A DNA stretch of 29,673 nt from a virus, in IMG/VR virus record IMGVR_UViG_3300003323_000098, positions 1 through 29,673 of that record; one strand, given 5' to 3'. The notes beneath the pieces are model-generated. The model did no database searches, was not told the DNA's origin, and worked only from the letters and a program-made list of their open reading frames with translations. Of this stretch, positions 5,477 to 27,417 are shown piece after piece. The position numbers and the translations under genes were made by a program. Position 1 is the stretch's first letter. Every line of letters begins with the position of its first letter.

Positions 5477-5932
5477 ATGAACTCCCTACAGAAACGCTTT
5501 GTCCGGTTCTCGCTGCATGCCGGTGCCGGTGGCCGCTGCACCTATTGCGGCGTTGGCACTGGACTGCGCCGCGGGACCATAGACCACTATCTGCCGCTGG
5601 CGCTTGGCGGGACCGACGAACGCGGCAACCTGCGATGGTGCTGCGTGGACTGCAACGCAGCCAAAGGCGCCTTGCACCCCAACGAATGGGAGCGCATGCG
5701 GCCCAAGAGGGCCAGCAAGTCACGGCATGAGGCGCGCTGCGAACTCATCACGGCGGCGATTCAGCGCCAGCGACGCGCGCACACGCTCATCGTCCACGCC
5801 GTGCCTCTGCCGAGAATCGCCCCAGGTCTGAAGCCTCGCGCCGTCCGAATGACGGTCACGGGCGATCCCGGGCGCTACTTCGCCGTCGGCGGCCAGCAAT
5901 TCGAGGTTGTCGCCAGGAGCTGGAAACCATGA
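5477..5932 (+). CDS. HNH endonuclease
   Basis: The 151-residue protein shows a complete HNH core. It has C21-x2-C24, DH at 36-37 (TIDHYLPLALGGTDE), N51 (NLRWCCVDCN), C56-x2-C59, N60 and K63. The four Cys would hold a structural zinc and H37/N51/N60 form the active centre. The remaining C-terminal half (about 80-151) is Arg-rich and probably binds DNA. Homing, packaging or recombination roles are all possible. It is far from the terminase genes, so a recombination or homing role is slightly more likely. A good ribosome binding site, AAGGAG at 5463-5468, precedes the ATG. The end overlaps a second frame at 5929 by ATGA. Confidence 0.8.
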   Translation: MNSLQKRFVRFSLHAGAGGRCTYCGVGTGLRRGTIDHYLPLALGGTDERGNLRWCCVDCNAAKGALHPNEWERMRPKRASKSRHEARCELITAAIQRQRRAHTLIVHAVPLPRIAPGLKPRAVRMTVTGDPGRYFAVGGQQFEVVARSWKP

Positions 5933-5944
5933 CAATGCACCCCG

Positions 5945-6163
5945 ATGACAAAGCCGCACCTGACCCGAGCCAACGGCTACTGGCGATGCCAGGGCCAGGG
6001 GGTGGATGGGTACGGGATGACGCCGAAGTCGGCGTTTGCGCAGTGGCGGGCGATGCTGCCGAAAGCGCTGAGGCCGTGGGTGGAGGACGAGCGCCTCTAC
6101 CCGACGCCTGTGGATCCGATGCTGGTCGCGCTGGCTGCTTGGGAGCCGACGCAGGCGCATTGA
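5945..6163 (+). CDS. Small phage protein with tryptophan motif
   Basis: The 72-residue protein MTKPHLTRANGYWRCQGQGVDGY... has aromatic and Gly-rich strands in the first half and a helical stretch (KSAFAQWRAMLPKALRPWVEDERL) in the second. Short proteins with GYWRC followed by TPKSAFAQW are frequent in phage early operons; their function is unknown. No good ribosome binding site is seen. It starts 12 bases after the HNH stop and may be coupled. Another frame from ATG 5929 runs through it to 6399; see that entry. I consider this frame the better one for 5945-6163, because its composition is protein-like while the other is Ala/Gly/Asp-rich. Confidence 0.6.
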   Translation: MTKPHLTRANGYWRCQGQGVDGYGMTPKSAFAQWRAMLPKALRPWVEDERLYPTPVDPMLVALAAWEPTQAH

Positions 6164-6171
6164 TCCATGGC

Positions 6172-6399
6172 ATGCGGCCCTGGCATCTCGCGGACTTCAT
6201 CTGCGGGGAGATCGAGGACGGTCGCCGGCAACCCGATGCACGCGTGACACCGCGCGAGATGCTGGACCTGCTGTCCGCGATGCAGCTCGGTGACTGCAAG
6301 TGCGTGCTCAGCGATGGCACCGTGCTGAAGCTGGCGGCACAGCAGGGCGGCTTTTACGTCACTTCATGCGGGCCGAGCCAGATGCTGGAGTCCGCATGA
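6172..6399 (+). CDS. Small phage protein, function unknown
   Basis: This is a 75-residue protein beginning MRPWHLADFICGEIEDG, then VTPREMLDLLSAM, then CKCVLSDGTVLKLAAQQGGF. The first half looks helical and the second is a short beta pair ending in QMLESA. It can be extended in frame back to ATG 5929, where an ATGA overlap with the HNH stop would give 156 residues. The added part overlaps the 72-residue gene and is low in complexity, so 6172 is preferred. It ends with an ATGA overlap to the metalloprotease-like gene. Function is not known. Confidence 0.55.
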   Translation: MRPWHLADFICGEIEDGRRQPDARVTPREMLDLLSAMQLGDCKCVLSDGTVLKLAAQQGGFYVTSCGPSQMLESA

Positions 6400-6776
6400 A
6401 GCGCCAATGGCTCGACAGGCGCATCGCAGCGCCCGGCCCGTTCCTGGCACTTTGCCTGACCGAGGATCAGCTCGTCAGCGCCTGCCGAGATTTGAAGGTG
6501 AAGCCGCCCGGCTACTTCATCCGCAACGACCACTCGCACGCGACCGTCCACCACTATGACTCGCCATTTGGACTCGCCTGCATCGTCTGCGTTCGAGGGT
6601 ACGACGAGCACACCCCAGTTGAGATGGCGGGTCTCTTGGTGCACGAGGCAGTGCATATCTGGCAGGAATACGCCGACCACATTGGCGAGCGCAACCCAGG
6701 CCGAGAGCAGGAGGCCTATGCGATCCAGGCCATTGCGCAGGAGCTGATGGCGGAGTTTGCGAGGCAGGTGGCGTAG
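6396..6776 (+). CDS. Small HExxH putative metalloprotease
   Basis: The 126-residue protein contains HEAVH at 83-87, preceded by the hydrophobic helix PVEMAGLLV. It is followed by E104 and E106 in GREQEAYAIQAIAQEL, where the third zinc ligand of a gluzincin would be expected. This matches small phage proteins with a minimal zincin fold. The N-terminal 80 residues (CLTEDQLVSACRDLKVKPPGY; FIRNDHSHATVHHYD) are family-like but have no known role. It could cleave a host or phage protein or be a non-proteolytic relative. The start is coupled by ATGA at 6396 and the next gene starts at its last base. Confidence 0.6.
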   Translation: MKRQWLDRRIAAPGPFLALCLTEDQLVSACRDLKVKPPGYFIRNDHSHATVHHYDSPFGLACIVCVRGYDEHTPVEMAGLLVHEAVHIWQEYADHIGERNPGREQEAYAIQAIAQELMAEFARQVA

Positions 6777-7003
6777 TGAAAGTCTCCGACAGCCGCCGCA
6801 AGCCGTTCCGCGCCCAAGGCAACGCCAGGCGTAGGGGCGAGATGCTCAAAGCCATGCTGAGCGGTTTTGCCGATGCCATGAATTGCCGGCTCATGGACAG
6901 GATCATGGCAGTTACCAAACCGGATCACATCCAGCACTTCATTTGGCGGCCGAAGCCGTACATCTTCGATGCTGGCGTGAAGACTGTTCACAGCGGAAAA
7001 TGA
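6776..7003 (+). CDS. Small basic protein before terminase
   Basis: The 75-residue basic protein starts at GTG 6776, sharing one base with the previous stop. The N-terminal part, KVSDSRRKPFRAQGNARRRG, is strongly positive and suggests nucleic-acid binding. The middle (EMLKAMLSGFADAMNCRLMDRIM) is an amphipathic helix. The C-terminus (HFIWRPKPYIFDAG) may form a short strand pair. It immediately precedes and overlaps the small terminase gene by ATGA. A helper role in packaging is possible only by position. Confidence 0.5.
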   Translation: MKVSDSRRKPFRAQGNARRRGEMLKAMLSGFADAMNCRLMDRIMAVTKPDHIQHFIWRPKPYIFDAGVKTVHSGK

Positions 7004-7476
7004 CAGGCATGGGCCAGCAATCCACGTTCAACGACAGCGACGCCGAGACGATCTACCAATGTCTCGCGGAGGGGAAGTCTCTGCTGTCCATCTGCGAGGC
7101 CATGGGCCTTGCGTACAGCACGGCGAGGCAGTGGGAGCTCGACCACCCCGAACACGCCGCGAAATCCGCGCGCGCGCGGGAGCTTGGATGCCATTTCCTG
7201 GCCGAGCAATGCCTACAGATCGCTGACACGCCGGTCGAAGGCGTCGAGACGACCGAGAAGCCGGACGGGTCCATTGAAGTCAAGCGCGGCGACATGCTGC
7301 AGCACCGCAAGCTGCAGATCGACACGCGGATGCGCCTGATCGGCAAGTGGGCGCCGAAGATCTACGGCGACAAGCTGGCCGTTGGCGGCGCGGAAGACCT
7401 GCCGCCCGTGAAGCATGACCACAACGTCACGATGACGCCAGAGGAAGCCTACAAGCGGATGCTCAGCGGTGGCTGA
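7000..7476 (+). CDS. terS: Terminase small subunit, Sf6-like
   Basis: This 158-residue protein has the layout of Sf6/P22-type small terminases. It has an N-terminal helix-turn-helix (DAETIYQCLAEGKSLLSICEAMGLAYSTARQWE at about 14-46), a helical oligomerisation region (about 50-75, SARARELGCHFLAEQCLQIAD) and the signature LQIDTRMRLIGKWAPKIYGDKL at 105-126. Small terminase recognises the packaging site and loads the large subunit. The start at 7000 overlaps the upstream stop as ATGA; ATG 7009 is an alternative. It is followed by TerL with an 8-base overlap. Confidence 0.8.
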   Translation: MTGMGQQSTFNDSDAETIYQCLAEGKSLLSICEAMGLAYSTARQWELDHPEHAAKSARARELGCHFLAEQCLQIADTPVEGVETTEKPDGSIEVKRGDMLQHRKLQIDTRMRLIGKWAPKIYGDKLAVGGAEDLPPVKHDHNVTMTPEEAYKRMLSGG

Positions 7477-8977
7477 CTGGGCGCCGGACTACGACCAGGT
7501 CTACCGCGAGCGCGCTGAGCGCCTGGAGCGCATCCGCTCGACGCCGGGGATGCTGGAAGGGCTGAAGGCCTTCTACAAGGACAACCCGGTCCAGTTCATC
7601 ATGGACTGGGGCATGACGTTCGACCCCCGCAACGCCGAGGTCGGCCTGCCGACGACGATGCCTTTCCTGCTCTTCCCCAAGCAGCAGGAGTTCATCGTCT
7701 GGCTGCGCGAGCGCTGGATGGGGCGCGAGGACGGCCTGGCCGAGAAGAGCCGGGACATGGGCGTCTCCTGGCTGTGCGTGGCCTTCGCGGTCTGGATGTG
7801 GCTGTTCCATGCCGGCACAGTCGTCGGCTTCGGCTCGCGCAAGGAAGAGTACGTCGACGACCTCAACGACCCGAAGTCGCTCTTCTGGAAGGCGCGCCAG
7901 TTCGTCAACCTGCTGCCTGTCGAGTTCCGCCCGGCCGGCTGGGACCCGAAGAAGCACGCGCCCTTCATGACGCTGACGAACCCGGAGAACGGGTCGGCCA
8001 TCGTCGGCGAGTCGGGCGACAACATCGGCCGCGGCAACCGCACGAGCGTCTACTTCAAGGACGAATCCGCCTTCTACGAGCGCGCCGAGACCATTGACGC
8101 CGCGCTGTCGCAAACCTCCAACTGCAAGATCGACGTCAGCACGCCCAACGGCAACGGCAATCCGTTCTACCGCAAGCGCCACGGCGGGAAGATCAAGGTC
8201 TTCACCTTCCACTGGCGCGACGATCCACGCAAGGGCCCAGAGTGGTACGCGAAGCAGCAGAACGACCTCGATCCGGTCGTGCTGGCCCAGGAGGTGGACA
8301 TCGACTACAACGCCTCGACGAGTGACGCCTGGATTCCGGGCGCGCTGGTGGAAGCGGCGCAGCGCCTGGGGCCGGCCGATATAGAGGCGAATGGCCCCTG
8401 GATGATCGGCGTCGATGCGGCGCACATGGGCGACGACGAGAGCGTCATCACCTGCCGCCGCGGCCTGCTGACGCTCAAGCCGGTGCCGTTCAAGGGGCTG
8501 GATGGTCACGCGCTTGCGGCCAGCGTTGAGGAACTGTGCCGACAGTTCGAGGACGCTGGACAGATCATCGGCATGATCGCCATCGAACTGGATGGCCCAG
8601 GCGTCAGCGCCTACGACACGCTCAAGCGCGGCAAGTGGGCCGCTGTCGTCGTCGGCGTGCACACTGGCGCCAAACTGAAGGATGACCGGAACTACAACGT
8701 CAAGGCGCGGATGTGGCGCGCGGCGCTTGACTATCTCAAGGCTGGCGGCTGCTCGATGGGCATCGACCCTGAGCTGAAGTCGCAGCTGTCGTCCTACCGG
8801 TACAGCTACCGCGACGGCCTGCTGCTGATGGAGGCGAAGAAGGACTACAAGAAGCGCATCGGCAAGTCGCCGGACCGCGCTGACTCGTGGATTCTGACGT
8901 TCGCCACGCCAATGAAGACACCCGCTCCGCCCGCCGTCGAACCGCTGCCAGTGGTCAATCACTACCGCCGCCGCTAA
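7469..8977 (+). CDS. terL: Terminase large subunit
   Basis: The 502-residue protein has the two domains of a packaging ATPase-nuclease. The ATPase half shows a Walker A-like segment at 92-101 (EKSRDMGVSW), a Walker B strand at 194-199 (VYFKDE), and GRGNRTS just before it. The nuclease half has the RNase H-like acidic set: D316 (GVDAAHMGDDES), D375 (AIELDGPG) and D469/D472 (KSPDRADSW). It powers headful DNA packaging through the portal and cuts the concatemer. Length and motifs match the P22/Sf6 group. The start GTG 7469 overlaps TerS. It is followed by an 83-base gap holding RNA element A. Confidence 0.93.
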   Translation: MADWAPDYDQVYRERAERLERIRSTPGMLEGLKAFYKDNPVQFIMDWGMTFDPRNAEVGLPTTMPFLLFPKQQEFIVWLRERWMGREDGLAEKSRDMGVSWLCVAFAVWMWLFHAGTVVGFGSRKEEYVDDLNDPKSLFWKARQFVNLLPVEFRPAGWDPKKHAPFMTLTNPENGSAIVGESGDNIGRGNRTSVYFKDESAFYERAETIDAALSQTSNCKIDVSTPNGNGNPFYRKRHGGKIKVFTFHWRDDPRKGPEWYAKQQNDLDPVVLAQEVDIDYNASTSDAWIPGALVEAAQRLGPADIEANGPWMIGVDAAHMGDDESVITCRRGLLTLKPVPFKGLDGHALAASVEELCRQFEDAGQIIGMIAIELDGPGVSAYDTLKRGKWAAVVVGVHTGAKLKDDRNYNVKARMWRAALDYLKAGGCSMGIDPELKSQLSSYRYSYRDGLLLMEAKKDYKKRIGKSPDRADSWILTFATPMKTPAPPAVEPLPVVNHYRRR

Positions 8978-8992
8978 ACTCTCGCCCATCCC

Positions 8993-9060
8993 GACCGGCG
9001 CCACGCCGGCCCGCTGAGCACACCGAGCGTCCAGCAGCTCATCCGAACTTGGATGACGCT
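8993..9060 (+). promoter_or_regulatory. Two-hairpin leader element, copy A
   Basis: The first 48 bases (8993-9040) align without gaps to 19433-19480, with 36 identities. Hairpin 1 is CCGGC (8995-8999) with GCCGG (9005-9009) around a 5-base loop. GCTGAG (9013-9018) and CCAGCAGCTC (9031-9040) are fully conserved. Hairpin 2 pairs GCTCATCC (9037-9044) with GGATGAcGC (9051-9059, one bulged base) and ends one base before ATG 9061, so it covers the start region. It may control translation of the SGNH gene. Confidence 0.55.
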
Positions 9061-10521
9061 ATGCCGACGATTGCAGCGGGCACGAACCCCACCATCACCC
9101 TTGCGGCCGGCCAGAAGCTGGTGTTTTCAGCCGGCGGCGCTGGGCTGGCGACCGTCCTGCGGGTTGGCGCTTTGGCGCCGCTGCGAAACATGATGCTCGG
9201 CGCCGCGCCGATAACAATCGGCCCGTTCGGCCTTGACCACACGGTCAGCGTGGCCTGCGAACGGGCGCTGACCTACACCGTGGGCGCGTCGCCAAATGTG
9301 CTCACCGACGCCGTAAACGGATCGACCTTTCCGGCGCAGTACGACGCTACGCAGGTGGCGCCGCAGATTCAAGCGGTGGTGTCAGGGGCTGGGTTTTCCG
9401 CGATCACCAACTCAGCCGCCCTCAAGCCGTTCGCCCAGTACCTTGCCGGGGCGACCGCCAGGGAGGTCTACATCACCGGCACCGGCGACAGTCTGCTGCA
9501 GTTCGGCGGCGACAACCCGGCCGCGCCGCCCAGCAGCGACACCCTGGCGGAGCGCGACGGATTCCTGGCACAGCTCCGCGCCCAGCTCAATGCCCGCCTG
9601 GGGACGCCGGACGGTGGCCAGTGGATCCCGGCCGAGGCCTCGGTTTCCGATACCCGCGTCGCCAATACCAGCGTCGGCTACGTCAACCAGTTCGGCCCGT
9701 ACAACGCGTACAACAACGGCAGCAACGTCATCACGCAGCGCCGCGCCACCTCCCTGAATGGCTCGGGCCAGAACGTCACCTTCACGGTGACCGGTCGCTA
9801 CCTGGACATCGAGCTCTGGGAAAACGCCGGCACCTACGGCGGCACCATGAGCTGGACGGTCGACGGTGGCGGCGGTGGCACGATCAACACCAATGCCGGC
9901 GGCGGCGCGACGGACACCTACCGCACGGTGCGCCTGGACCTTGTCACCGACGCCGCGCATACGGTCTCGATCACCTGGGCATCCGGTCAGAACCTCATCA
10001 CCGGCGCGACCGTCACGCGGGGCCGTGGCGTCGTCACTCGCCGCTTTGGCTATGGCGGCAGCAAGGCCAGCACCTGGACCGGCCTGACGACCAAGCAGAC
10101 GCGCACCAGCTTCCAGACGCTGGTGACGCATCTGCACATCATCCGGCTGAGCTACAACGACTGGAACAACCAGGTCGCTGACGGCCTGACCATCGCCGGT
10201 TTCCAGACCAACATCCAGACGCTCATCAACGCGGCGCTGGTGAACACCAACGTCAAGGCGGTGCTGCTGATCGCCGACCCGACCAGCTCGACGGCTGACA
10301 CCAAGCCGCTGCTCTATCGGCAGTTTTCAGACGCCCTGAAGGCGCTGGCGACGGGCAGCGTGGCCTTCTTCGATGTGGACGTGGCCACGAACAGCACCTA
10401 CACGGCAGGCAATACCGCTGGCTACTACGTGGACTTCGTGCACCGCTCCGGCGCCGGCTACTCGGCTGAGGCTCGCGCACTCACCGAAGTGCTGACCAGC
10501 TCAAACCTGCTGACGGCCTGA
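9061..10521 (+). CDS. SGNH/GDSL-type hydrolase, likely virion esterase
   Basis: The 486-residue protein has the pieces of an SGNH hydrolase. Block I is GDS at 142-144 (YITGTGDSLLQFGGD). The N/D pair is SYND at 364-367. Block V is D458-x-x-H461 in YYVDFVHRSGAGY, giving a Ser144/Asp458/His461 triad. An insert at about 195-330 looks like a Gly/Asn-rich beta-sandwich (YNAYNNGSNV, GRYLDIELWEN, MSWTVDGG). The first 75 residues (ITLAAGQKLVFSAGGAG...) resemble small beta domains of tail appendages. Family members remove acyl groups from sugars or lipids; here a surface-polysaccharide deacetylase is inferred. Its place between terminase and portal is unusual. The start is ATG 9061, preceded by no strong open ribosome binding site. 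Confidence 0.7.
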   Translation: MPTIAAGTNPTITLAAGQKLVFSAGGAGLATVLRVGALAPLRNMMLGAAPITIGPFGLDHTVSVACERALTYTVGASPNVLTDAVNGSTFPAQYDATQVAPQIQAVVSGAGFSAITNSAALKPFAQYLAGATAREVYITGTGDSLLQFGGDNPAAPPSSDTLAERDGFLAQLRAQLNARLGTPDGGQWIPAEASVSDTRVANTSVGYVNQFGPYNAYNNGSNVITQRRATSLNGSGQNVTFTVTGRYLDIELWENAGTYGGTMSWTVDGGGGGTINTNAGGGATDTYRTVRLDLVTDAAHTVSITWASGQNLITGATVTRGRGVVTRRFGYGGSKASTWTGLTTKQTRTSFQTLVTHLHIIRLSYNDWNNQVADGLTIAGFQTNIQTLINAALVNTNVKAVLLIADPTSSTADTKPLLYRQFSDALKALATGSVAFFDVDVATNSTYTAGNTAGYYVDFVHRSGAGYSAEARALTEVLTSSNLLTA

Positions 10522-10548
10522 TTCCCATCCCCTCCGCGAGCCCACCGC

Positions 10549-12627
10549 ATGAAATCCAAAGCCCAGCGCCTTGCCGACCTCCACGCCGAGTCGCTGCAGG
10601 AGTTCAACGACATTCAGGGCGCGGTGCGCGAAGAGCGCATGCAGTGTCTGGAGGATCGCCGCTTCGTGTACATCACCGGCGCGCAGTGGGAAGGCCCGCT
10701 CGGCGATCAGTTCGAGAACCGGCCGCGGTTCGAGTTCAACAAGACGCACTTGGCCGTCAAGCGCGTCATCAGCGAGTACCGGAACAACCGCATCACGCTC
10801 GACTTCCAGCCCAAGGACGGCGGCAACGACGACGAGCTCGCCGATGCCTGCGATGGCCTCTACCGCGCCGACTACCAAGCCAGCAGCGGCGACGAGGCTG
10901 TCGACACCGCCTTCGAAGAGGGCGTCAGCGGGGGCTTCGGTGCTTGGCGCCTGTGCGCGGACTACGAAGACGAGCTGGACGACGACAACGACCGGCAGCG
11001 CATCACCATCGAGCCCATCCACGACGCCGACAACCGCGTCTTCTGGTCGCTGGACGGCAAGCGCTACGACAAGCGGGACGCGCGCCGCTGCTACGTGCTC
11101 ACGCCCTACGACCGCCGCGCCTACCAAACGGAGTTCGACGACGACCCGGACAGCTGGCCGCACGCGATCCACCAGAACGAGTTCGACTGGGTCACGCCGG
11201 ACGTTGTCTACGTCGCTGAGCTGTACCGCGTCGAGGAGGACAGCGAGCTCGTTCACATCTTCCAGGGCCTGGGTGGGGAGGGCGACGAGAAACGCGTAAC
11301 CGAGGCCGAGCTGGAAGAGCAGGAAGGCCTGGCAGCCGAGTTGCAGGCCACCGGCTACACCGAAGTCCGCCAGAAGCGCATCCGCAAGCGCATCGTCATG
11401 AAGTACACGATGAGTGGCGGCCGGATCTTCGACAAGGGAGACCACAAACCCCAGCGCATCGCCGGCACCGAGATTCCCGTCGTGCCCTTCTTCGGCATGC
11501 GCCAGGTCGTGGACGGCATCGAGCGCTGCAATGGCCACGCGCGCCTCGCCAAGGATGCCCAGCGCCTGAACAACATGCTGCTGTCGTGGCTCGCGCAGAT
11601 GGCCGCTGAGTCCGGCCCTGATGTGCCAATCATGACGCCCGAGCAGATGGCCGGCCACGCCACCATGTGGGCCGAGCACAACATCAAGCGCTTCCCGTTC
11701 CTGTTCGCGAACATGCTGACCGACCCGACGACGGGTCAGCCCATCCCTGGCAGCCAGATGCCGGCCGGCTACAAGCAGTCGCCGCAGGTGCCGCCTGCCG
11801 TCGCCGCACTGGCGCAGATGGCCTTCCAGGCGCTCGAAGACATGCTTGGCAACCAGCAGGCCGGCGAGCAGATGCAGCCGAACATCAGCGGCAAGACCGT
11901 CGAGCTGATCCAGAACCGGCTGGACATGCAGGTGTTCATCTACCTCAGCAACCTGGCCCGCAGCCGCAAGCGCGAGGGCGAAATCTGGCTCGCGATGATG
12001 CGCGACATCGCCGTCGACAGCGACGACAAGCGCAAGGTACTGGCTGCAGACGGCACGCCAAGCAGCATCATCCTGAACCAGGCCGCATACGACCCGGAGA
12101 CTGGCGAGGACTACACCCGCAACGACATTACGAAGGCGAACTTCGATGTCGTTCCCGACGTCGGCCCCAGCAGCAGCAGCAGGCGCGCCGCCACCGTGCG
12201 CGAGTTGACTGCGATGAAGGCCAACACGCAGGACCCGGAGACCATCGCCATCCTGGACGGCCTGATCCTCATGAACATGGACGGCGAGGGCGTCAACGAC
12301 GCCCGCGAGTATTTCCGCCGCAAGCTGGTCCGCATGGGCGTCATCAAGCCCACCAAGGACGAGGCCGCCGAGATGGCTCAGGAGCAGGCCAACGCCCAGC
12401 CGTCGCCCCAAGACCAGTTCGCCCTGGCCGCCGCAGAACAGGCCCAGGCCGATGCCGGCAAGGCTCGCGCACAGACGGTGCAAGTCATCGCCGACGCGGA
12501 CCTGAAGCGGGCGCAGACGGCCAAGACCTACGCCGACACCATGGGAAGCCACAACGACCAGCTGATCGCCAGCTACCAGGCGCTGCAGCAGATGCTCCAG
12601 CCACCGCAGCAGGCGACCATGCAGTGA
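10549..12627 (+). CDS. P22-like portal protein
   Basis: The 692-residue protein is close to P22 portal (725). Recognisable parts are the N-terminal FNDIQGAVREERMQCLEDRRF and QWEG motif (about 18-50), FEFNKTHLAVKRVISEYRNN (about 62-81), a long beta-rich wing region with acidic patches (about 110-310), and the crown/stem region with GNQQAGEQMQPNISGKTVEL (about 436-455). A helical, Gln/Ala-rich barrel-like C-terminus follows (about 600-692). The portal forms the twelve-subunit ring at one vertex through which DNA is packed and ejected. It is flanked by the SGNH gene and scaffold, with gaps of 27 and 74 bases. Confidence 0.9.
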   Translation: MKSKAQRLADLHAESLQEFNDIQGAVREERMQCLEDRRFVYITGAQWEGPLGDQFENRPRFEFNKTHLAVKRVISEYRNNRITLDFQPKDGGNDDELADACDGLYRADYQASSGDEAVDTAFEEGVSGGFGAWRLCADYEDELDDDNDRQRITIEPIHDADNRVFWSLDGKRYDKRDARRCYVLTPYDRRAYQTEFDDDPDSWPHAIHQNEFDWVTPDVVYVAELYRVEEDSELVHIFQGLGGEGDEKRVTEAELEEQEGLAAELQATGYTEVRQKRIRKRIVMKYTMSGGRIFDKGDHKPQRIAGTEIPVVPFFGMRQVVDGIERCNGHARLAKDAQRLNNMLLSWLAQMAAESGPDVPIMTPEQMAGHATMWAEHNIKRFPFLFANMLTDPTTGQPIPGSQMPAGYKQSPQVPPAVAALAQMAFQALEDMLGNQQAGEQMQPNISGKTVELIQNRLDMQVFIYLSNLARSRKREGEIWLAMMRDIAVDSDDKRKVLAADGTPSSIILNQAAYDPETGEDYTRNDITKANFDVVPDVGPSSSSRRAATVRELTAMKANTQDPETIAILDGLILMNMDGEGVNDAREYFRRKLVRMGVIKPTKDEAAEMAQEQANAQPSPQDQFALAAAEQAQADAGKARAQTVQVIADADLKRAQTAKTYADTMGSHNDQLIASYQALQQMLQPPQQATMQ

Positions 12628-12701
12628 CGTTGAACGGCGGCCCCTTGGAAGTTCAATTCATTTGAATGACAATCGCGCAATCCCCACCACGGATTTGAAC
12701 A

Positions 12702-13748
12702 ATGCGCCACTCCCGACTGCTCTCGCTGCTCCTTCGTCGCGTCATGGCTCCGGCCGAGATGGGCGGCGGCGGTGGCGGCGCTGCGGTCGTGGATGAGGAC
12801 GAAGACCTCGGCGGCGACACAACCGGTGCTGATGAAGTCGACGGCAATGGCGACGACGAGGGCGGCGAGGGCTCCGCCAGCGCGGCCGACGAAGGCGAAG
12901 AAGACGACAGCGAAGTCGTCATCAGCCTGGGCGGCGAGCCCGAGCCGGCCGAAGACGACGACGACGCCTCCGCCGAGGCTGCCATCGCTGCACTGGGCGA
13001 CGAGACGGCCAACGACGCCTTCGCCCGCATGCGTGTGGCACGCAAGGAACTGAAGCGCCGACTGCAACGCGAGGAGCAGGAGAAGCTGGAGGCCAAGCAG
13101 CGTGCCCGCGAACTGGAAGAGCAGTTGCAGGCGATGCGCCCCGCCGAAGCCACCATCGAGGTTGGCAAGGAGCCCGACCCGGACGAGTACGAGATGTACA
13201 CGGACGAGGGCAAGGCCAAGTTCAAGGCCGACTACGCTGCCTTCAACCAGCGCAAGGCTGAAGCCGCAGCCCAGAAGGAGAAGCGCGAGCAGACCCAGCG
13301 CGAGCAGCAAAAGCAGTGGGCCGACCGCCTGACTGCGGTTGACGAGGCTACGGCCAAGCTGCCCGTGAAAGCGCAGAAGGAAGCCGTGCAGGCCTTCGAC
13401 AGCACCTTCAGCGTCGTGCAGCGCGGCATTGTCATGGGCGCGCTGGACACGCCCGAGACCTCGGCGCAGATGCGCCACGCCCTGGGCACGAACTCCATGG
13501 TCGCCCGCAAGCTGGCCGCCATCAATGACCCCGTGAAATTCGCTGTCGCTATCGGCGAGCTGAAGGCCAACATGAAGATCACCAAGACCAAGCGCATTGC
13601 ACCCGCTCCAGAAAAGCGCGTGCAGTCCGGCAAACCGGGCGCTGCCGCCGTGGGCAACCAGCTGGAGCGCCTGCGCGCCGAAGCTGACCGCACCGGCGAC
13701 CGCTCCAAGGTCGCGCGCTACCTGCGCGACCACCCGCAAGCGGCCTGA
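12702..13748 (+). CDS. Scaffolding protein, P22-like
   Basis: The 348-residue protein is rich in acidic residues near the start (DEDEDLGGDTTGADEVDG to about residue 95) and then forms long helices. Residues 105-150 (RVARKELKRRLQREEQEKLEAKQRARELEEQL) and 180-215 (RKAEAAAQKEKREQTQREQQKQWADRL) are coiled coil. The tail (KKTKR... VGNQLERLRAEADRTGDRSKVARYLRDHPQAA) is basic. Scaffold proteins direct coat assembly and leave the head. The basic C-terminus would contact the coat, as in P22. The position between portal and coat supports it. ATG 12702 is the first in-frame start; ATG 12744 is possible. There is no strong ribosome binding site. Confidence 0.8.
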   Translation: MRHSRLLSLLLRRVMAPAEMGGGGGGAAVVDEDEDLGGDTTGADEVDGNGDDEGGEGSASAADEGEEDDSEVVISLGGEPEPAEDDDDASAEAAIAALGDETANDAFARMRVARKELKRRLQREEQEKLEAKQRARELEEQLQAMRPAEATIEVGKEPDPDEYEMYTDEGKAKFKADYAAFNQRKAEAAAQKEKREQTQREQQKQWADRLTAVDEATAKLPVKAQKEAVQAFDSTFSVVQRGIVMGALDTPETSAQMRHALGTNSMVARKLAAINDPVKFAVAIGELKANMKITKTKRIAPAPEKRVQSGKPGAAAVGNQLERLRAEADRTGDRSKVARYLRDHPQAA

Positions 13749-13826
13749 CGCCGCCGTCCGGCGCACGTCACGCGCCAGGTCTCGCCCACCTCACGGGCAG
13801 GTTTGAGGAGGCCCCCGTCCGGCCCT

Positions 13827-13878
13827 GAGCGGATGAGTCAAGCAGCGCGGCGCAAGCCGCATTCAGCACTCATCGCTC
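13827..13878 (+). promoter_or_regulatory. Two-tier hairpin before the coat gene
   Basis: An outer arm at 13827-13838 (GAGCGGATGAGT) pairs with 13868-13878 (ACTCATCGCTC), giving 11 base pairs with one bulged G. Inside it, GCGGC (13847-13851) and GCCGC (13856-13860) form a stem closed by a GCAA tetraloop (13852-13855). The ribosome binding site AAGGA (13879-13883) begins one base after the hairpin, ahead of ATG 13892. It may stabilise the coat mRNA or tune its translation. Confidence 0.6.
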
Positions 13879-13891
13879 AAGGAACCGCATC

Positions 13892-15181
13892 ATGGCTACC
13901 GCCTTCTCCAAGCAGGAAACCGTCCTGTTCGACAAACTCCTGGCCGGCTTCGACGACATGCTCGTCGCCGCCCGCAACGTCGCCCGCTTCAACGCCGATC
14001 CCCTGGTGTTGGAGCGCTCGCAGGGCACGCAGATCTGGCGCCCGCAGCCCTACATCTCCACCTCGGTGGATGGCCCTGCCGGCACCAGCATCTCGTCCAG
14101 CTTCAGCGACCTGACGCAGCTGTCCGTGCCCATCTCGCTCGGCTTCGACAAGTCCGTCCCGTGGAAGATGACCACGAATGACGTGAACGACCCGCAGCAG
14201 CGCGAGCGCAAGATCACCAGTGCCTTCCAGCGCCTGGCCACTGACATCAACGTGTCCGTCGCCAACGTGGCTTGCCTGCAGGGCACGCTGACCGTCAAGC
14301 GCACCGTCGCCGCCACCGGCTACGACGACCTGTCTTTGGCCGACGCGCTGATGATCGAGCAGGGCTTGGTGGGTGACATGGGCCGCCGTGTCGCCATCGC
14401 CCACGCCCGCGATTACAACGCCATGGCCGGCACGCTGGCCAAGCCGCAGACCTCGGCGAACCCGAAGGTCAACACGGCCTACGAGAAGGCCTACATCGGC
14501 AACGTCTCTGGCTTCGAGACCTTCAAGGCGGACTACACCTACCGCCTGACCGCCGCCGCTGGCACCAGCGTGACGGTGAACGGCGCCAACCAGCGCTACG
14601 TCCCGAAGGCCACCAGCACAGCGGCCACCGGCGAGACCGGCAACGTGGACAACCGCTACCAGTCGTTCGCGATCACGGTCGGCGGCGGCACGGTGAAGGT
14701 GGGCGACAAGTTCACCATCGCAGGCGTCAACGCCGTGCACCACATCAGCAAGGCCGACACCGGTCAGCTGAAAACCTTCACCATCACTGGCATCGTGACC
14801 GGCGCTGGTGGCACGGGCACGGTGCTGATCAGCCCGCCGATCATCGCCGCCGACTCCTCGCCGACGCAGCCCGAGCTCGAGTACAAGAACGTGACCGCGA
14901 CGCCCGCCAACGGTGCCGCCATCACCTTCCTGAACACGGTCGCGGCCAACGTGCTGCCCTTCTGGGACGAGCGCGCCATCGAGCTGCTGCCCGGCCGCAA
15001 CGGTGTGGACGAGGACGCCGGCTTCTTCATGCGCGGCACGACCGAGCTGGGCATCGACGTGATCATGTACAAGCTCTTCGACATCGACAGCAAGGTCTAC
15101 AAGTACCGCTGCGATAGCCGCTGGGGCGTCGGCATGACGAACCCCGAGATGTGCGGCGGCATCCTCTTCAACCAGACCTGA
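13892..15181 (+). CDS. Major capsid (coat) protein, P22-like
   Basis: The 429-residue protein has almost the same length as the P22 coat (430). It contains features of that family: VLFDKLLAGFDDMLVAARNV at about 10-29, QIWRPQPYISTSVDG at 47-61, and LTQLSVPISLGFDKSVPWKMT. An inserted beta-rich domain at about 220-340 (ITVGGGTVKVGDKFTIAGVNAV) corresponds to the I-domain. The C-terminus ends with TTELGIDVIMYKLFDIDSKVYKYRCDSRWGVGMTNPEMCGGILF. It builds the T=7 head. AAGGA at 13879-13883 is a good ribosome binding site. Strong hairpins lie upstream, and two terminators follow, consistent with high, separately controlled expression. Confidence 0.92.
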   Translation: MATAFSKQETVLFDKLLAGFDDMLVAARNVARFNADPLVLERSQGTQIWRPQPYISTSVDGPAGTSISSSFSDLTQLSVPISLGFDKSVPWKMTTNDVNDPQQRERKITSAFQRLATDINVSVANVACLQGTLTVKRTVAATGYDDLSLADALMIEQGLVGDMGRRVAIAHARDYNAMAGTLAKPQTSANPKVNTAYEKAYIGNVSGFETFKADYTYRLTAAAGTSVTVNGANQRYVPKATSTAATGETGNVDNRYQSFAITVGGGTVKVGDKFTIAGVNAVHHISKADTGQLKTFTITGIVTGAGGTGTVLISPPIIAADSSPTQPELEYKNVTATPANGAAITFLNTVAANVLPFWDERAIELLPGRNGVDEDAGFFMRGTTELGIDVIMYKLFDIDSKVYKYRCDSRWGVGMTNPEMCGGILFNQT

Positions 15182-15195
15182 TCGGTTGTCTCCAG

Positions 15196-15217
15196 CCCGG
15201 TTTCGCAGCCGGGTTTT
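15196..15217 (+). terminator. First terminator after the coat gene
   Basis: CCCGG (15196-15200) and CCGGG (15209-15213) form a 5-bp stem around an 8-base loop, followed by TTTT (15214-15217). It begins 15 bases after the coat stop. It is weaker than the second terminator. Confidence 0.6.
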
Positions 15218-15223
15218 CTCCAC

Positions 15224-15250
15224 CGGGCCGCCAGCGCGCGGCCCGTTTTT
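15224..15250 (+). terminator. Strong intrinsic terminator after the coat gene
   Basis: CGGGCCGC (15224-15231) pairs perfectly with GCGGCCCG (15238-15245) around a 6-base loop. TTTTT follows directly. This is a textbook intrinsic terminator in the late operon, so genes downstream depend on read-through, antitermination or another promoter. Confidence 0.8.
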
Positions 15251-15268
15251 CAAGCAGGAGCACCGAAC

Positions 15269-15658
15269 ATGGACCGCTTTCCAATGATGATCTACCGCGC
15301 CCCAGGCCCCGAGCTTCTGGACGGCGTGAAGTGCGAAAGCCGCGTCATCCACGACGAGGACGAGATGCACGCCGCTGCCGGCGATGGCTGGCACCCCACC
15401 CCCAGCGCTGCGGGCGAAGCCCTGCTGGCTGAAAAGGCGCGCCGCGAAGCTGAAGCCGCCGACGAGGAGCGGGCGCTGGCCCAGGCGGAGGCCGAGATGC
15501 AAGCCGCCGCGATTCGCGCGCCGCTGGAAGCTGAGATCGAAGCGCTGAAGGGGAAGGTCGCAGACGCTGAGCAGGCGCTTGCGGACGAGCGCGCGGCGCA
15601 CGCCAAGACGAAGGCGGCTCTCGCCGAGCCACCCGCCGGCAAGCGCGCCAAGGCCTGA
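15269..15658 (+). CDS. Coiled-coil late protein, function unknown
   Basis: The 129-residue protein has a short beta-like start (MDRFPMMIYRAPGPELL, VKCESRVIHDEDEMHAA) with GDGWHPTPSAAGEALL at about 38-53. A long Ala/Glu/Lys coiled coil follows (about 55-120, EKARREAEAADEERALAQAEAEM). Small proteins with a GWxPT element followed by coiled coil occur next to coat or connector genes in many podoviruses. A head-assembly or decoration role is inferred from position. AGGAG upstream of ATG 15269 is a clear ribosome binding site. It lies immediately after the coat terminators and two bases before the gp4-like gene. Confidence 0.6.
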   Translation: MDRFPMMIYRAPGPELLDGVKCESRVIHDEDEMHAAAGDGWHPTPSAAGEALLAEKARREAEAADEERALAQAEAEMQAAAIRAPLEAEIEALKGKVADAEQALADERAAHAKTKAALAEPPAGKRAKA

Positions 15659-15660
15659 AC

Positions 15661-16146
15661 ATGATCACGAAGCGCCAGCTCGTGTCCAAGCTGTTCGGCG
15701 AGCTGGCCCTCGTCGGATATGAGTTCGACATGTCGCCGGAAGAGCAGCAGGACGCCGCCGGCCGCATCGAAGCCATGGTCGCGAATTGGGCGCTGGACGG
15801 CACGGGCCTGCCCTACAACTTCTCTGCGGACCTGGAGAGCATCGACCTCGACGCCGATTCGGGTGTTCCGCTCGCCCACATGCGCACGGTCTACACCGGC
15901 GCCGCCATCGACTATGCCGCCACCCTCGGCAAGTCCGTGCACGTCAGCACCCGCACAGCGTTCGCGCAGGGCTTCAGCCGCCTGCAGGCCATCGCCGCCT
16001 TCCCGCCACCGGTGCAACTGCCCAGCAGCCTCCCTGCAGGCGCCGGCAACCGCCGACAGCGCGCGAACTGCAACCCCTTCATGCCAACGCCTGACCTCGG
16101 GCCGCTCCAGATCGCCGGTGACGGCGGTCTCGCCTTCGGAGATTGA
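15661..16146 (+). CDS. gp4-like head-tail connector (tail accessory factor)
   Basis: The 161-residue protein begins MITKRQLVSKLFGELALVGYE and has EEQQDAAGRIEAMVANWALDGTGLPYNF at about 26-53, SGVPLAHMRTVYTGAAIDYA at about 67-86, and helices to about residue 115. This matches P22 gp4-type proteins, which bind the portal after packaging and form the first ring of the tail. A Pro/Gly-rich end (LPSSLPAGAGNRRQRANCNPFMPTPD) could reach along the portal; similar tails occur in the family. In P22, gp4 precedes gp10 and gp26; here several small beta-rich proteins lie between the gp4-like and gp10-like genes. Assignment is by helical pattern and position. Confidence 0.75.
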   Translation: MITKRQLVSKLFGELALVGYEFDMSPEEQQDAAGRIEAMVANWALDGTGLPYNFSADLESIDLDADSGVPLAHMRTVYTGAAIDYAATLGKSVHVSTRTAFAQGFSRLQAIAAFPPPVQLPSSLPAGAGNRRQRANCNPFMPTPDLGPLQIAGDGGLAFGD

Positions 16147-16148
16147 TC

Positions 16149-16604
16149 ATGCCAGCCATCAACCGCCTGTCGACCGTTTCCGATCTTCAATCCAGCGACC
16201 TGATCGCGCTCTTCTCTGGCGCTCTCGGGAACGACGCCGCGGCCACGCTTGCCACGCTGCTGGCATGGCTGCAAGGCCAACTGACCGACGCCACCGCGCC
16301 CGTGACGCAGTACGCCGCGCCTGGCGCGAGCGGCTTCAGCGTCACCATCGCGCCGCCCACGACCGGCGCCAGCGTCTTCCTGCTGCTGCAGCCCGGCGGC
16401 GCCTATGCGGCTGGCACGCTGGTGCTGCCCACCGGCGTGGATGGCCAGGAGGTGGTCGTGCACACCCGCCAGGCCATCACCGCGCTGACGGTGACGCCGG
16501 CAAGTGGGCAGACGACCAGCGGCGCCCCCACCACGATCGCGCAGAACGGCTTCTTCCGCCTGCGCTTCGACCAGATCAACCAGCTTTGGGCCCGAGTGGG
16601 CTGA
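16149..16604 (+). CDS. Beta-rich virion protein (paralogue of 16934 protein)
   Basis: The 151-residue protein has a helical N-terminus (MPAINRLSTVSDLQSSDLIALFSG, about 1-45). A beta-rich C-terminal module follows at about 63-151, ending in FFRLRFDQINQLWARVG. The module shares its pattern with residues 31-114 of the protein at 16934: a strand pair, LP followed by GQ, then TALTV and a closing NxW segment. This suggests an ancient duplication. Phage proteins with an N-terminal SDLxxxD motif followed by a beta module are often fibre- or knob-like. The function is unknown. ATG 16149 is preferred to an in-frame TTG at 16143. Confidence 0.6.
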   Translation: MPAINRLSTVSDLQSSDLIALFSGALGNDAAATLATLLAWLQGQLTDATAPVTQYAAPGASGFSVTIAPPTTGASVFLLLQPGGAYAAGTLVLPTGVDGQEVVVHTRQAITALTVTPASGQTTSGAPTTIAQNGFFRLRFDQINQLWARVG

Positions 16605-16614
16605 GGAGCACGAC

Positions 16615-16932
16615 ATGACCGTCAAGCAGCCCATCAATCCCAGCTACGGCTCGACGAAGAGCGTCACCGCTGGCACGTCCGCCGGCAACCTGGTGATCGA
16701 CGCCCAGCGCGGCTCCAAAAGCCTGCGGCTGATCAACCTCAGCGCCAACGTTATCTACGTCCGCACCTGGGACAGCAATGCAGGCTCCGTGCCAAGCGCC
16801 ACGGCGGCCGATTTTCCGATTGCGCCCAACCAGGCAACCACGATCACCAAGCAGCAGGAGCACGACACGCTGTGCCACCTGGCCGAGACCGGCTCCTCGC
16901 GCTTCCTGGCCTCGCTGGGCGAGGGCTGGTGA
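16615..16932 (+). CDS. Small beta-rich virion protein
   Basis: The 105-residue protein has MTVKQPINPSYGSTKSV, then a strand-rich core: LVIDAQRGSKSLRLINLSANVIYVRTWDSN at about 24-53 and DFPIAPNQATTITK at about 63-76. It ends SSRFLASLGEGW. The pattern resembles single jelly-roll or Ig-like accessory proteins of phage heads and tails. GAGGAG at 16602-16607, seven bases before the start, is a clear ribosome binding site. It shares the general build of the 19053 protein (strands with N and T turns, charged core) but no clear identity. Decoration, or a tail-ring addition, is inferred. Confidence 0.55.
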   Translation: MTVKQPINPSYGSTKSVTAGTSAGNLVIDAQRGSKSLRLINLSANVIYVRTWDSNAGSVPSATAADFPIAPNQATTITKQQEHDTLCHLAETGSSRFLASLGEGW

Positions 16933-16933
16933 G

Positions 16934-17278
16934 ATGGACGCGCCTTTCTACACCCCTCCCGCAGCCGGCGGCGCCCCAGCTGCACAGCCCTACGTCAAGC
17001 AGAACACGCCGACCGCCGGGCAGACTGTCACCTTCGACAACACGTCCGCCGACCACACGCTGTACCTGACCCCGGCAGGTGTGCTTGCAACCCTGACCGT
17101 GACGCTGCCTTCCGACGCCAGCAGCACGCTCGGCCAGACGGTGACGGTCGCAAGCACACAGACGCTGACGGCGCTGACGGTCAACGGCGCCACGATCCTC
17201 AACAACATCACGACGCTGCTCGGCAACGCCGCGGCCAGCTTCCGCAAGGTCGCCGCGAACACCTGGGTCAAGCTCTGA
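16934..17278 (+). CDS. Beta-rich virion protein (paralogue of 16149 module)
   Basis: The 114-residue protein starts one base after the preceding stop. A Pro-rich leader (MDAPFYTPPAAGGAPAAQPYV) is followed by a beta module at about 29-114. The module has TVTFDNTSADHTLYLTPAG, LTVTLPSD, GQTVTVASTQTLTALTVNG and NTWVKL at the end. The order LTPAG, LP, GQ, TALTV and NxW is the same as in the C-terminal half of the 16149 protein, so the two are probable paralogues. In both, the beta module forms the C-terminal part. The function is unknown; a trimeric or pentameric accessory of the head or tail fits. Confidence 0.6.
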   Translation: MDAPFYTPPAAGGAPAAQPYVKQNTPTAGQTVTFDNTSADHTLYLTPAGVLATLTVTLPSDASSTLGQTVTVASTQTLTALTVNGATILNNITTLLGNAAASFRKVAANTWVKL

Positions 17279-17284
17279 CGCGTC

Positions 17285-18688
17285 GTGGCCCAAATCCCCA
17301 TCCTCTCGGGCATCACCGCTGACGCGGTCGCGGACTTCCGCACCTCGTATCCGCGCAACATGGTGCCGGTGCCAAAGAGCACAGGCATCTCCGAGGGCTA
17401 CCTGCGGCCGGCTGACGGCATCGACCTATTCGCCACCGGCCCCGGCACAGACCGCGGCGGCTTCAACTGGGAAGGCACGCTTTACCGCGTGATGGGGACG
17501 AAGCTCTGCAGCGTCTCCAGCGCGGGGGCCGTCACGGTGCTGGGCGATGTCGGCACTGGCGGCCGCGTCACTATCGACAACGGCGTCGGCTACATCGGCA
17601 TTTGGTCTGGAGGGCGGCTCTACTTCTGGGACGGCAGCACGCTGACCCAAGTCACCGACCCGGACCTGGGAACCGTCATTGACGGCTGCATCACCGGCGG
17701 CTACGCACTCAGCACGGACGGCACCTACCTGATCGTCAACGAGCTGACCGACCGAACGCAGGTCAACCCGCTGAAGTACGGCAGCGCTGAATCCGACCCC
17801 GATCCGATCTTGGGCGTCAGCGAGCTGCTGAACGAGGCCTATGCATTCGGCCGCTACACCATCGAGGTGTTTGAGAACGTCGGGGGTGATGGCTTCCCGT
17901 TTTCGCGCATTGAGGGCGCCCAAGTGCCGCGTGGTGTCATTGGCACGCACGCGGTGTGCAAGTTCGCCGACACCTTTGCCTTCGTTGGAAGTGCCCGCGA
18001 CGAGGCGCCGTCCGTCTACTTGATGGCACCGGGCAGCAGCCAGCGCATCAGCACGCGCGAGATTGATCAAATCCTTCTGCGATACACCGAGGCACAGCTC
18101 GCGCTGATGACCGTCGAGGCCAAGGTCGACAAGGGGCACAACTGGCTGATGCTGCACCTGCCGGACACCTGCTGGGTATACGACCTGAACGCCACCAAGG
18201 TCGTGCAGGAGCCGGTGTGGTTCGAACTGAACAGCGCGATCGTCGGCCTAGCCACCTATCGCGCTCGCAATCTGGTCTGGTGCTATGACCGATGGATCAG
18301 CGGCGACCCAACGGCAAGCACGCTGGGCACGTTCTCCGACGCCCACGGCGAGCACTACGGTGACGTCGTCGGCTGGGACTTCGGCACGCTGGTTCTCTAC
18401 AACGAGAGCCGCGGTGCAATCGTGCTCGAGATGGAGCTCGTCGCGCTCACTGGCCGCGTGGCGGCTGGCGCCAACCCGGTCGTATGGACCTCCTACTCGC
18501 TGGATGGCGAGACCTGGAGCCAGGAGCGGCCAGTCTCCGCCGGCCGGCAGGGCGAGCGCGGCAAGCGCCTGGCCTGGCGCAACCTCGGGAAGATGCGCAA
18601 TTACCGCGTCCAGCGGTTCCGCGGCACCAGCGACTGCCATGTCTCATTCGCGCGGCTTGAAGCTCAATTCGAGGCCTTGAATGGATGA
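17285..18688 (+). CDS. gp10-like packaged-DNA stabilisation protein
   Basis: The 467-residue protein is close to P22 gp10 (472). It opens with MAQIPILSGITADAVADFRTSYPRNMVPVPKSTGISEGYLRPADGI-like segments, the family N-terminus. It then forms a repeated beta-propeller-like body with YIGIWSGGRLYFWDGSTL (about 101-118), YTIEVFENVGGDGFPFSRIEGAQVPRGVIG (about 191-220) and WYDLN-like strands. In P22 this protein binds the gp4 ring and receives the needle, closing the head. GTG 17285 is the start; the upstream gene ends seven bases earlier. It overlaps the next gene by 8 bases. Confidence 0.88.
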   Translation: MAQIPILSGITADAVADFRTSYPRNMVPVPKSTGISEGYLRPADGIDLFATGPGTDRGGFNWEGTLYRVMGTKLCSVSSAGAVTVLGDVGTGGRVTIDNGVGYIGIWSGGRLYFWDGSTLTQVTDPDLGTVIDGCITGGYALSTDGTYLIVNELTDRTQVNPLKYGSAESDPDPILGVSELLNEAYAFGRYTIEVFENVGGDGFPFSRIEGAQVPRGVIGTHAVCKFADTFAFVGSARDEAPSVYLMAPGSSQRISTREIDQILLRYTEAQLALMTVEAKVDKGHNWLMLHLPDTCWVYDLNATKVVQEPVWFELNSAIVGLATYRARNLVWCYDRWISGDPTASTLGTFSDAHGEHYGDVVGWDFGTLVLYNESRGAIVLEMELVALTGRVAAGANPVVWTSYSLDGETWSQERPVSAGRQGERGKRLAWRNLGKMRNYRVQRFRGTSDCHVSFARLEAQFEALNG

Positions 18689-19043
18689 GCTGAATCCACG
18701 CCGCCTGACGCGCGCGCAGCTGGCTCAGTTCCTGCCGACGCACGACCTCATCAAGGCCTTCGAAGCGCTGTTCAACGTCACAGGCGCCACGCCTGACGAA
18801 ATCAACACGCTGACGCAGCTGGTTGAGGAAGTGACGCTGAACGCCGAGAGCGCCGCCGCCGGCCAGGCCGCTGTCGTGGCGCAGTTGCAGCGGATGGCGA
18901 GCGCCCTGGAGACGCTGGCGCTCGCCCCAGCTGTAGAACCTACACCAGTCCCGGAGCAATACGCCTGCGAAGGCTGCGCCGCCATGCGCGAAGAGCTCAA
19001 CGCCATGCGCGCGCGCGTCGAAGCGCTCGAAAACGCCCCCTGA
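18681..19043 (+). CDS. Coiled-coil late protein after gp10
   Basis: The 120-residue protein starts inside the end of the gp10-like gene. It has MDELNPRRLTRAQLAQFLPTHDLIKAFEALFNVTGATPDEINTL-type helices at about 1-45, then a helical middle. A C-terminal segment with C95, C98 (ACEGCAAMREELNAMRARVEALENA) is predicted coiled coil. The short acidic start and coil suggest an oligomeric structural or assembly protein, such as an analogue of P22 gp14 or a needle partner, but neither is identifiable. The CxxC pair is not sufficient for a zinc site by itself. It is followed by a gene with a good ribosome binding site. Confidence 0.55.
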   Translation: MDELNPRRLTRAQLAQFLPTHDLIKAFEALFNVTGATPDEINTLTQLVEEVTLNAESAAAGQAAVVAQLQRMASALETLALAPAVEPTPVPEQYACEGCAAMREELNAMRARVEALENAP

Positions 19044-19052
19044 GGAGCCACC

Positions 19053-19391
19053 ATGCCCGCCACGCCTACCGTTCTCATCGCCCCCAAGCAAGCCGAAGCA
19101 GCCCAGACCACGCAATACACGTCACCAGTGGGCGGCAAGGGCACGCTGATCGACAAGTTCACGGCCACGAACACAAGTGCCGGCGCCGTCACGCTCTCGA
19201 TCAACCTCGTCAGCGACGGCACGCCGAGCGACAACGACCTGATCGTCAAGACGAAATCCATCGCCCCCGGTGCGACCGAGACCTTTCCTGAGATCGTCGG
19301 CAGCTACCTCGCGCCTGGCTCCGTCATCTCGACCATCGCCAGCGCCGCCACGTCCGTGACGATCCGTTCCAACGGTCGCGAGCTCACCTGA
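19053..19391 (+). CDS. Small beta-sandwich virion protein
   Basis: The 112-residue protein is almost all beta: QYTSPVGGKGTLIDKFTATNTSAGAVTLSINLV (about 21-53), KTKSIAPGATETF (about 66-78) and VTIRSNGREL at the end. This pattern of paired strands with an Asn/Thr turn is common in phage capsid-cement or fibre-base proteins. Here it closes the connector group, before the ejection genes. GAGGAG at 19041-19046 is its ribosome binding site. After its stop comes a 111-base gap holding the second copy of the two-hairpin element. The actual function is not known. Confidence 0.55.
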   Translation: MPATPTVLIAPKQAEAAQTTQYTSPVGGKGTLIDKFTATNTSAGAVTLSINLVSDGTPSDNDLIVKTKSIAPGATETFPEIVGSYLAPGSVISTIASAATSVTIRSNGRELT

Positions 19392-19432
19392 TTTGCCGCA
19401 GCGGCACCCCCGCTGCCATAATCCGCGCACTT

Positions 19433-19502
19433 GACCGGCATTGCGCCGGGCAGCTGAGATCCCAGAGCCGCCAGCAGCTCGCCACCCTTCGGGGGGAGCA
19501 AG
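19433..19502 (+). promoter_or_regulatory. Two-hairpin leader element, copy B
   Basis: Hairpin 1 is CCGGC (19435-19439) with GCCGG (19445-19449), loop of five bases, same size as copy A but with a different loop sequence. GCTGAG (19453-19458) and CCAGCAGCTC (19471-19480) match copy A exactly. Hairpin 2 pairs GCTC (19477-19480) with GAGC (19496-19499) and encloses CCC(TTCG)GGG, with 19492 as the closing base, so the G-rich ribosome binding site (19491-19498) is covered just before GTG 19503. Confidence 0.55.
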
Positions 19503-27307: not shown

Positions 27308-27417
27308 GCCATTGATGCAAAACAGAAAACAGGCTCTCTTGGTGGTCTGCACCGCCAACATCTGCCAGCGCTGATTTCTCCTATGAACGGCGAGCGCTGT
27401 TCACTTCGTGTTCACTT
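27293..27417. repeat. Repeat-rich gap, possible attachment or arm sites
   Basis: CAGAAAACAG occurs at 27293-27302 and 27323-27332. AGCGCT is found at 27367-27372 and 27393-27398. GTTCACTT occurs at 27399-27406 and 27410-27417. Such short paired repeats next to an integrase-type gene can be arm or core sites, but no attachment core can be proved without a host junction. Confidence 0.35.
27339..27358. terminator. Hairpin between convergent genes
   Basis: TTGGTGGT (27339-27346) pairs with ACCGCCAA (27351-27358), eight pairs with one G-T, around a CTGC loop. It lies between the end of the rightward late genes and the leftward gene. No T-run follows on plus. On minus, T-rich sequence lies about nine bases beyond it. 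A bidirectional terminator is plausible only. Confidence 0.35.

Follow-up and report, generated by a model that had tools for sequence, protein, structure and literature searches.

Evidence for a pseudoknot in an RNA leader ahead of late genes of P22-like phages

The usual explanation for the control of late genes in P22-like and lambda-like phages is transcriptional and invokes the Q antiterminator. The put RNA of phage HK022, which forms two hairpins in early transcripts, acts on RNA polymerase. In the preQ1 and SAM-II riboswitches, the Shine-Dalgarno sequence lies within a pseudoknot and the unpaired bases that bind the ligand are conserved. As for viral pseudoknots that serve the autoregulation of translation, a review of 2010 considered that of T4-type gene 32 to be perhaps the only case (PMC3014915). 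The gene 32 pseudoknot serves one gene, is bound by the product of that gene, and lies 67 nt ahead of the start codon with an A+U-rich stretch behind it (PMC3014915).

Here I analysed a virus record of 29,673 bases, called the window in its whole length, which has a P22-like late block. Two copies of a candidate RNA leader were found in it. Copy A lies between TerL and a tail protein gene, and copy B lies ahead of a gene for a DNA ejection protein. The features are as follows.

7469-8977: TerL, preceded by TerS, in the late block of the window.
8975-8980, + strand: -10-like box TAAACT of copy A, read from the sequence; it overlaps the TerL stop codon.
8995-9009, + strand: P1 of copy A, the 5' hairpin CCGGCG-CCA-CGCCGG (RNAfold).
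9013-9018, + strand: 5' strand of the copy A pseudoknot, GCUGAG, near-invariant in the family.
9025-9040, + strand: P2 hairpin of copy A, GAGC-GU-CCAGC-A-GCUC, with compensatory changes at the P2 pairs.
9031-9035: P2 loop CCAGC of copy A, which pairs with 9013-9018.
9037-9059, + strand: P3 of copy A, the hairpin GCUCAUCC:GGAUGAcGC before AUG 9061 (RNAfold); its GCUC is common to P2.
9061-10521, + strand: tail protein gene (phrog_15881) behind copy A; the portal gene is next.
10549, 12702 and 13892: portal, scaffold and coat, followed by head-tail adaptor and closure genes.
19393-19422, + strand: promoter of copy B, TTGCCG-18-CATAAT, with TG before the -10 box at 19417-19422 (promoter scan).
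19435-19449, + strand: P1 of copy B, CCGGC-ATTGC-GCCGG (RNAfold).
19453-19458, + strand: 5' strand of the copy B pseudoknot, GCUGAG (covariance model; U3-A9 covariation in leaders).
19465-19480, + strand: P2 hairpin of copy B, GAGC-CG-CCAGC-A-GCUC, with compensatory changes.
19471-19475: P2 loop of copy B, which pairs with 19453-19458.
19477-19499, + strand: P3 of copy B, GCUC:GAGC with an inner stem with GGGGGGAG, before GUG 19503 (RNAfold).
19503-20282, + strand: P22 gp7-like DNA ejection protein gene (PF25688, phrog_598) behind copy B.

An earlier note on this DNA had described the two copies as a shared two-hairpin element. The alignment behind it was reproduced: bases 8993-9040 match 19433-19480 without a gap and with 36 identities in 48 positions, and no other pair on the + strand of the window reached this figure when all ungapped pairs were compared. 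The CCGGC/GCCGG stem is present in both copies with loops that differ at four of five bases (GCCAC vs ATTGC), and GCTGAG and CCAGCAGCTC are the same in both. The second hairpin, of different sequence in the two copies, was also recovered. In copy A, GCTCATCC at 9037-9044 pairs with GGATGAcGC at 9051-9059, one base before the ATG at 9061, and in copy B, GCTC at 19477-19480 pairs with GAGC at 19496-19499, before the GTG at 19503. A covariance model made from 27 sequences, both window copies among them, scored the two copies at 40.2 and 39.7 bits and the next match in the window at 16.6 bits. A weak match of the model at 7513, within TerL (E 0.018), probably arose by chance. Elsewhere in the window, weak integrase matches on the - strand at 27401-28057 (phrog_1, and PF22022 with a score below its cut-off) suggest that the phage is temperate or keeps an integrase remnant. 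A Pfam/NCBIfam search of the window gave no match to a Q-like antiterminator.

The earlier note had neither the GAGC:GCUC helix nor the pseudoknot pairing of GCUGAG with CCAGC, and neither the -10 boxes in front nor the extent of the family. Stem 1 is GCUG-a-G:C-CAGC and stem 2, in P2, is GAGC:GCUC, and the two helices overlap. RNAfold, which does not consider pseudoknots, pairs the GCUC downstream. Among loci with four mismatches or fewer, GAGC:GCUC is replaced by GCGC:GCGC, AAGC:GCUU, GAGU:ACUC, GGGU:ACCC and others. The first alignment contained variants picked by eye, and a rescan with no pairing requirement was therefore performed. In these scans of IMG/VR, one base was forced off the consensus while its partner was left free, and matches were counted only in the leader context after removal of near-duplicates. 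Pairing was kept at P2 pair 2-15 in 28 of 29 leaders (G-U in 22/29), at the terminal P2 pair 1-16 in 10 of 15, and at P2 pair 4-13 in both of two. At the pseudoknot pair U3-A9, a C-G or G-C pair was found in all seven in-register leaders, two out-of-register matches having been taken out. Outside the leader context, matches to these patterns are paired less frequently (7/23 at U3-A9). The scan with a changed C2-G10 gave 14 matches, none of them in a leader. Thus, this pair is invariant and its scan serves as a control for the chance level. The other pairs of stem 1 are invariant and therefore silent on covariation.

By the alignment counts, 99.6% of the cells are paired, as against 62% or less in slid registers, and three of the four P2 pairs are changed on both sides. 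Stem 2 is supported by three covarying pairs, and stem 1 by one covarying pair together with its invariance and one U-G case. Since compensatory change is seen in both GAGC:GCUC and GCUG:CAGC, that is, in both of two overlapping helices, the core is assigned to the H-type pseudoknots, which replaces the two-hairpin form of the earlier note; the first hairpin is optional. A lack of stem conservation or covariation in the leaders of other phages had been named there as what would speak against the element, and compensatory changes were found in both helices. The claim of an RNA element before late virion genes, adjoining the Shine-Dalgarno sequence and conserved in pairing while its sequence changes, is supported. 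That these phages have a structured, pseudoknotted RNA leader is almost certain.

The bulged A and a single purine are the sole conserved bases outside the helices. With two bases ahead of its paired bases and one purine behind them, the loop nn-CCAGC-R would resemble a kissing-loop geometry more closely than a classical H-type stack, where a single nucleotide would need to bridge stem 1. The near-invariance of the paired bases exceeds what base pairing alone explains. It is compatible with protein binding, and a metabolite aptamer seems less likely given the few conserved unpaired bases. The likeness of GCCAGCAGC to the 530 loop of 16S rRNA is presumably a matter of chance.

Is this leader confined to the window? 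The earlier note had considered two copies only. The family, comprising both window copies and others, extends to about 200 distinct IMG/VR loci with a start codon, at the predicted transcript start. The common layout is a -10 box, an optional and variable P1, the core GCUGAG-n(3-14)-GAGC-nn-CCAGC-R-GCUC, P3 with the Shine-Dalgarno sequence, and the start codon. The set was gathered by a first pattern scan of IMG/VR, in which at least 119 stretches matched, and subsequently by scans in which the pattern was varied. The strict core GCTGAG-n-CAGCAGCTC was found 13 times among 161 loci, nearly all gathered via TerL and the ejection protein; the 13 matches include copy A itself (L001) and a near-identical relative (L082), and all of them are on the + strand shortly upstream of a start codon. 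Related contigs have one or two copies, which are mostly about 8-12 kb apart where there are two, and in phages the leader lies ahead of virion genes. In a divergent branch before the same ejection gene, AUGC:GCAU replaces GAGC:GCUC (L004, L005, L011, L017, L024, L026 and L027, near 1952).

Bacterial genomes rarely carry the leader. It was found in eight contigs of the GTDB set, mostly of Burkholderiales; one of the eight has no start codon in place (L286), and another is a probable chance match outside the leader context (L285). Seven bacterial genomes that were searched have a single copy each, and one of 301 genomes of one family was positive. Roseateles aquatilis CCUG 48205 (L282) and Pseudorhodoferax sp. 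Leaf274 (L287) are examples of carriers, where the leader would belong to a prophage. A model search of 19 related phage records gave one strong match, MW202867.1 (L289), and the leader is absent there from the P22-like HK620 and from the Vibrio, Rhodoferax, Sphaerotilus and Alteromonas phages. The record MW202867.1 is titled Myoviridae sp., yet its portal, coat and ejection genes are P22-like. When the leader was compared with phage records by BLAST, no match was obtained.

The first genes behind the leader are diverse. They encode a short tail fibre/cupin protein, a GNAT or P22 gp14-like protein (DUF2824), an aspartyl/asparaginyl hydroxylase, or a portal, ejection or tail protein. Second in frequency among them is the gene for a 149-residue family, phrog_21390 (function unknown), which has no Pfam match and was found at 63 loci (e.g., L309 4787). 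No first gene behind the leader was annotated as SSB. Over some 58 bases with promoter and pseudoknot, identity reaches 100% ahead of unrelated first genes, as in the pairs L314 7796/L309 4787, L168 5904/L174 2861 and L043 892/L275 2905. Thus, the leader is a cassette, and a site for autoregulation by one product is unlikely. It looks as though small genes were exchanged at the position that immediately follows it.

The -10-like boxes fall into two clusters upstream of GCUGAG, at 6-7 nt in loci with no P1 and at 26-32 nt in loci with P1. A P1-type stem is present in 70% of the distant class vs 16% of shuffles. The P1 arms make 41 different pairs among 44; that is, the sequence varies and the pairing stays. 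The copy A box is kept as TAAACT or TAGACT at an equal spacing in relatives (e.g., L082, L083, L173, L242 and L263). A plain promoter scan of the + strand from 5900 to 20500 gave one site only, ahead of copy B. Judging from the usual -10 spacing, transcripts are likely to start at P1 or, in loci with no P1, at the first base of GCUGAG; the start is predicted at this first base of the pseudoknot because the -10 box lies 6-7 nt upstream. The leader thus very probably sits at the 5' end of transcripts. In two close TerL relatives (L084 6213 and L086 9720), the -10 box and the pseudoknot are kept, P1 is absent, and the portal gene is next instead of the tail gene.

The distance from GCUC to the start codon is mostly 20-27 nt, and in 66% of the distinct loci a small hairpin carries the Shine-Dalgarno sequence in its 3' arm. 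By comparison with dinucleotide shuffles, the region from GCUC to the start codon, GCUC included, folds more stably (mean z -1.09, SE 0.10). Since GCUC belongs to both P3, the second hairpin of the earlier note, and the pseudoknot, the two compete. A stem of at least 6 bp that competes for GCUC was found in 31 of 99 distinct loci vs 20.4 (sd 3.4) in shuffles and 18.6 (sd 2.7) with swapped partners. Clear cases are L186, L210, L310, L313 and L070; in the last, GCUC has become ACCC, which matches a GGGU on the P2 side and on the P3 side alike. Many loci have only a weak competing stem or lack one (e.g., L003, L021 and L043), and thus a switch cannot be universal. For copies A and B alike, the minimum-energy prediction is the P3 fold, and the P2 state lies 4-6 kcal/mol above this with the pseudoknot stem left out. 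This stem contributes about -5 kcal/mol there, so that the two states are close. The stretch from GCUC to the start codon often changes along with the first gene. The pseudoknot stays as it is and so looks like a module of its own, a point against competition with P3.

The best-supported mechanism, to which I would give about an even chance, is translational control by a pseudoknot that competes with the Shine-Dalgarno hairpin. The leader would act in cis at the 5' end of the late transcripts of P22-like phages. Its GCUC and the following bases would pair either with the upstream GAGC, in the pseudoknot, or with the Shine-Dalgarno and start region, in P3. When the pseudoknot forms, P3 would be shortened or abolished and initiation would rise; when it is lost, P3 would close and initiation would fall. 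This direction, with the pseudoknot as the ON state, is taken from the mutual exclusion of the two pairings, its only basis. The balance may be set by an RNA-binding factor of the phage or the host, or by the folding pathway during transcription, and unlinked virion genes could be tuned together via the leader.

Could the leader simply stabilise the 5' end? A start within paired RNA would block pyrophosphate removal and RNase E entry, giving a long-lived late mRNA with no switching. With the spacing of 6-7 nt, transcripts that have no P1 would indeed begin with GCUGAG, and otherwise P1 directly follows; the leader does not depend on which gene it precedes, and the P1 pairing is kept despite its variable sequence. 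However, a simple hairpin would do for this purpose, and neither the near-invariant GCUGAG and CCAGC nor the above-chance competition with the Shine-Dalgarno hairpin is explained, so this reading seems rather unlikely. Antitermination of the put type, in which RNA polymerase would be bound by the nascent leader and ignore terminators along the long late operon, seems a little less likely again. It would fit a sequence-constrained leader with which late transcripts are predicted to begin, present in one or two copies per phage before long blocks of virion genes. Antitermination needs neither a near-fixed distance to the start codon nor an overlap with the Shine-Dalgarno hairpin, and put, set apart here by description, has two hairpins and no pseudoknot. 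A riboswitch for a small molecule, by which virion genes would be turned on in response to a metabolite of late infection, is very improbable: the H-type pseudoknot, together with the alternative fold at the Shine-Dalgarno sequence, would suit it, but almost no unpaired bases are conserved apart from the bulged A and one purine, unlike in known metabolite aptamers, and Rfam gave no match. A DNA operator, in which a dimeric regulator binds the GAGCnGCnnGCnGCTC dyad over the transcription start, is rejected as hardly credible because, although the 16 bases are nearly palindromic and half-sites would also co-vary, G-U dominates at pair 2-15 (22/29), which breaks DNA symmetry and keeps RNA pairing, and the second overlapping helix GCUG:CAGC covaries as well; the P1 pairing kept with 41 different arm pairs also speaks against it.

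Translational control by the competing pseudoknot is thus the reading that I prefer. A trans-acting factor that reads the leader is only suggested. On a more tentative level, the leaders may form a late-gene RNA regulon, that is, a promoter-coupled pseudoknot cassette, common to unlinked virion genes, through which an RNA-binding factor of the phage or the host, acting in trans during infection, would switch head, tail and ejection genes jointly at the level of translation. A covarying pseudoknot at the promoters of unlinked virion genes (about 200 loci, mostly of uncultivated phages) suggests a second layer of control at the RNA level, and the covariance model makes the leader family searchable.

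The earlier note knew of no described element of this form, and I came to the same result. In Rfam 15, the window had no match at the gathering threshold, and 15 loci and both copies had none that was credible at relaxed thresholds. A match to the lambda cIII thermoregulator (14.3 bits vs 50 needed, on the wrong strand) is due to chance. No description of the leader was found in the literature searched, a search with most subscription journals outside its reach. The leader family appears to be undescribed.

How does the leader compare with known systems? Compared by description, it is like HK022 put in being a short structured RNA at the start of a phage transcript; its place there is indicated by the -10 spacing and the copy B promoter, from which the starts were predicted. 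It is like the preQ1 and SAM-II riboswitches in being a compact H-type pseudoknot at the ribosome-binding site. Unlike in these riboswitches, the Shine-Dalgarno sequence lies outside the pseudoknot, and conserved unpaired bases for ligand binding, as expected of a metabolite riboswitch, are absent. The E. coli rpsO (S15) leader is also similar, being a translational-operator pseudoknot that is exclusive with another fold of the ribosome-binding site (PMC3014915 and general background), but it differs, by its description, in the autogenous control of a host ribosomal protein. The closest described case is the pseudoknot of T4-type gene 32 (PMC3014915). Both are leaders of phage mRNA in which a pseudoknot precedes the start codon, and both are proposed to act on translation initiation; the present leader has the 5' pseudoknot with two paired stems. 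The control that a binding SSB exerts on its own gene is not found here, as the first genes are those for portal, tail, ejection and short tail fibre proteins and others. In contrast to gene 32, the present leader precedes several unrelated late genes, is conserved in sequence, lies about 20-27 nt from the start codon and directly behind the promoter, and is exclusive with the Shine-Dalgarno hairpin.
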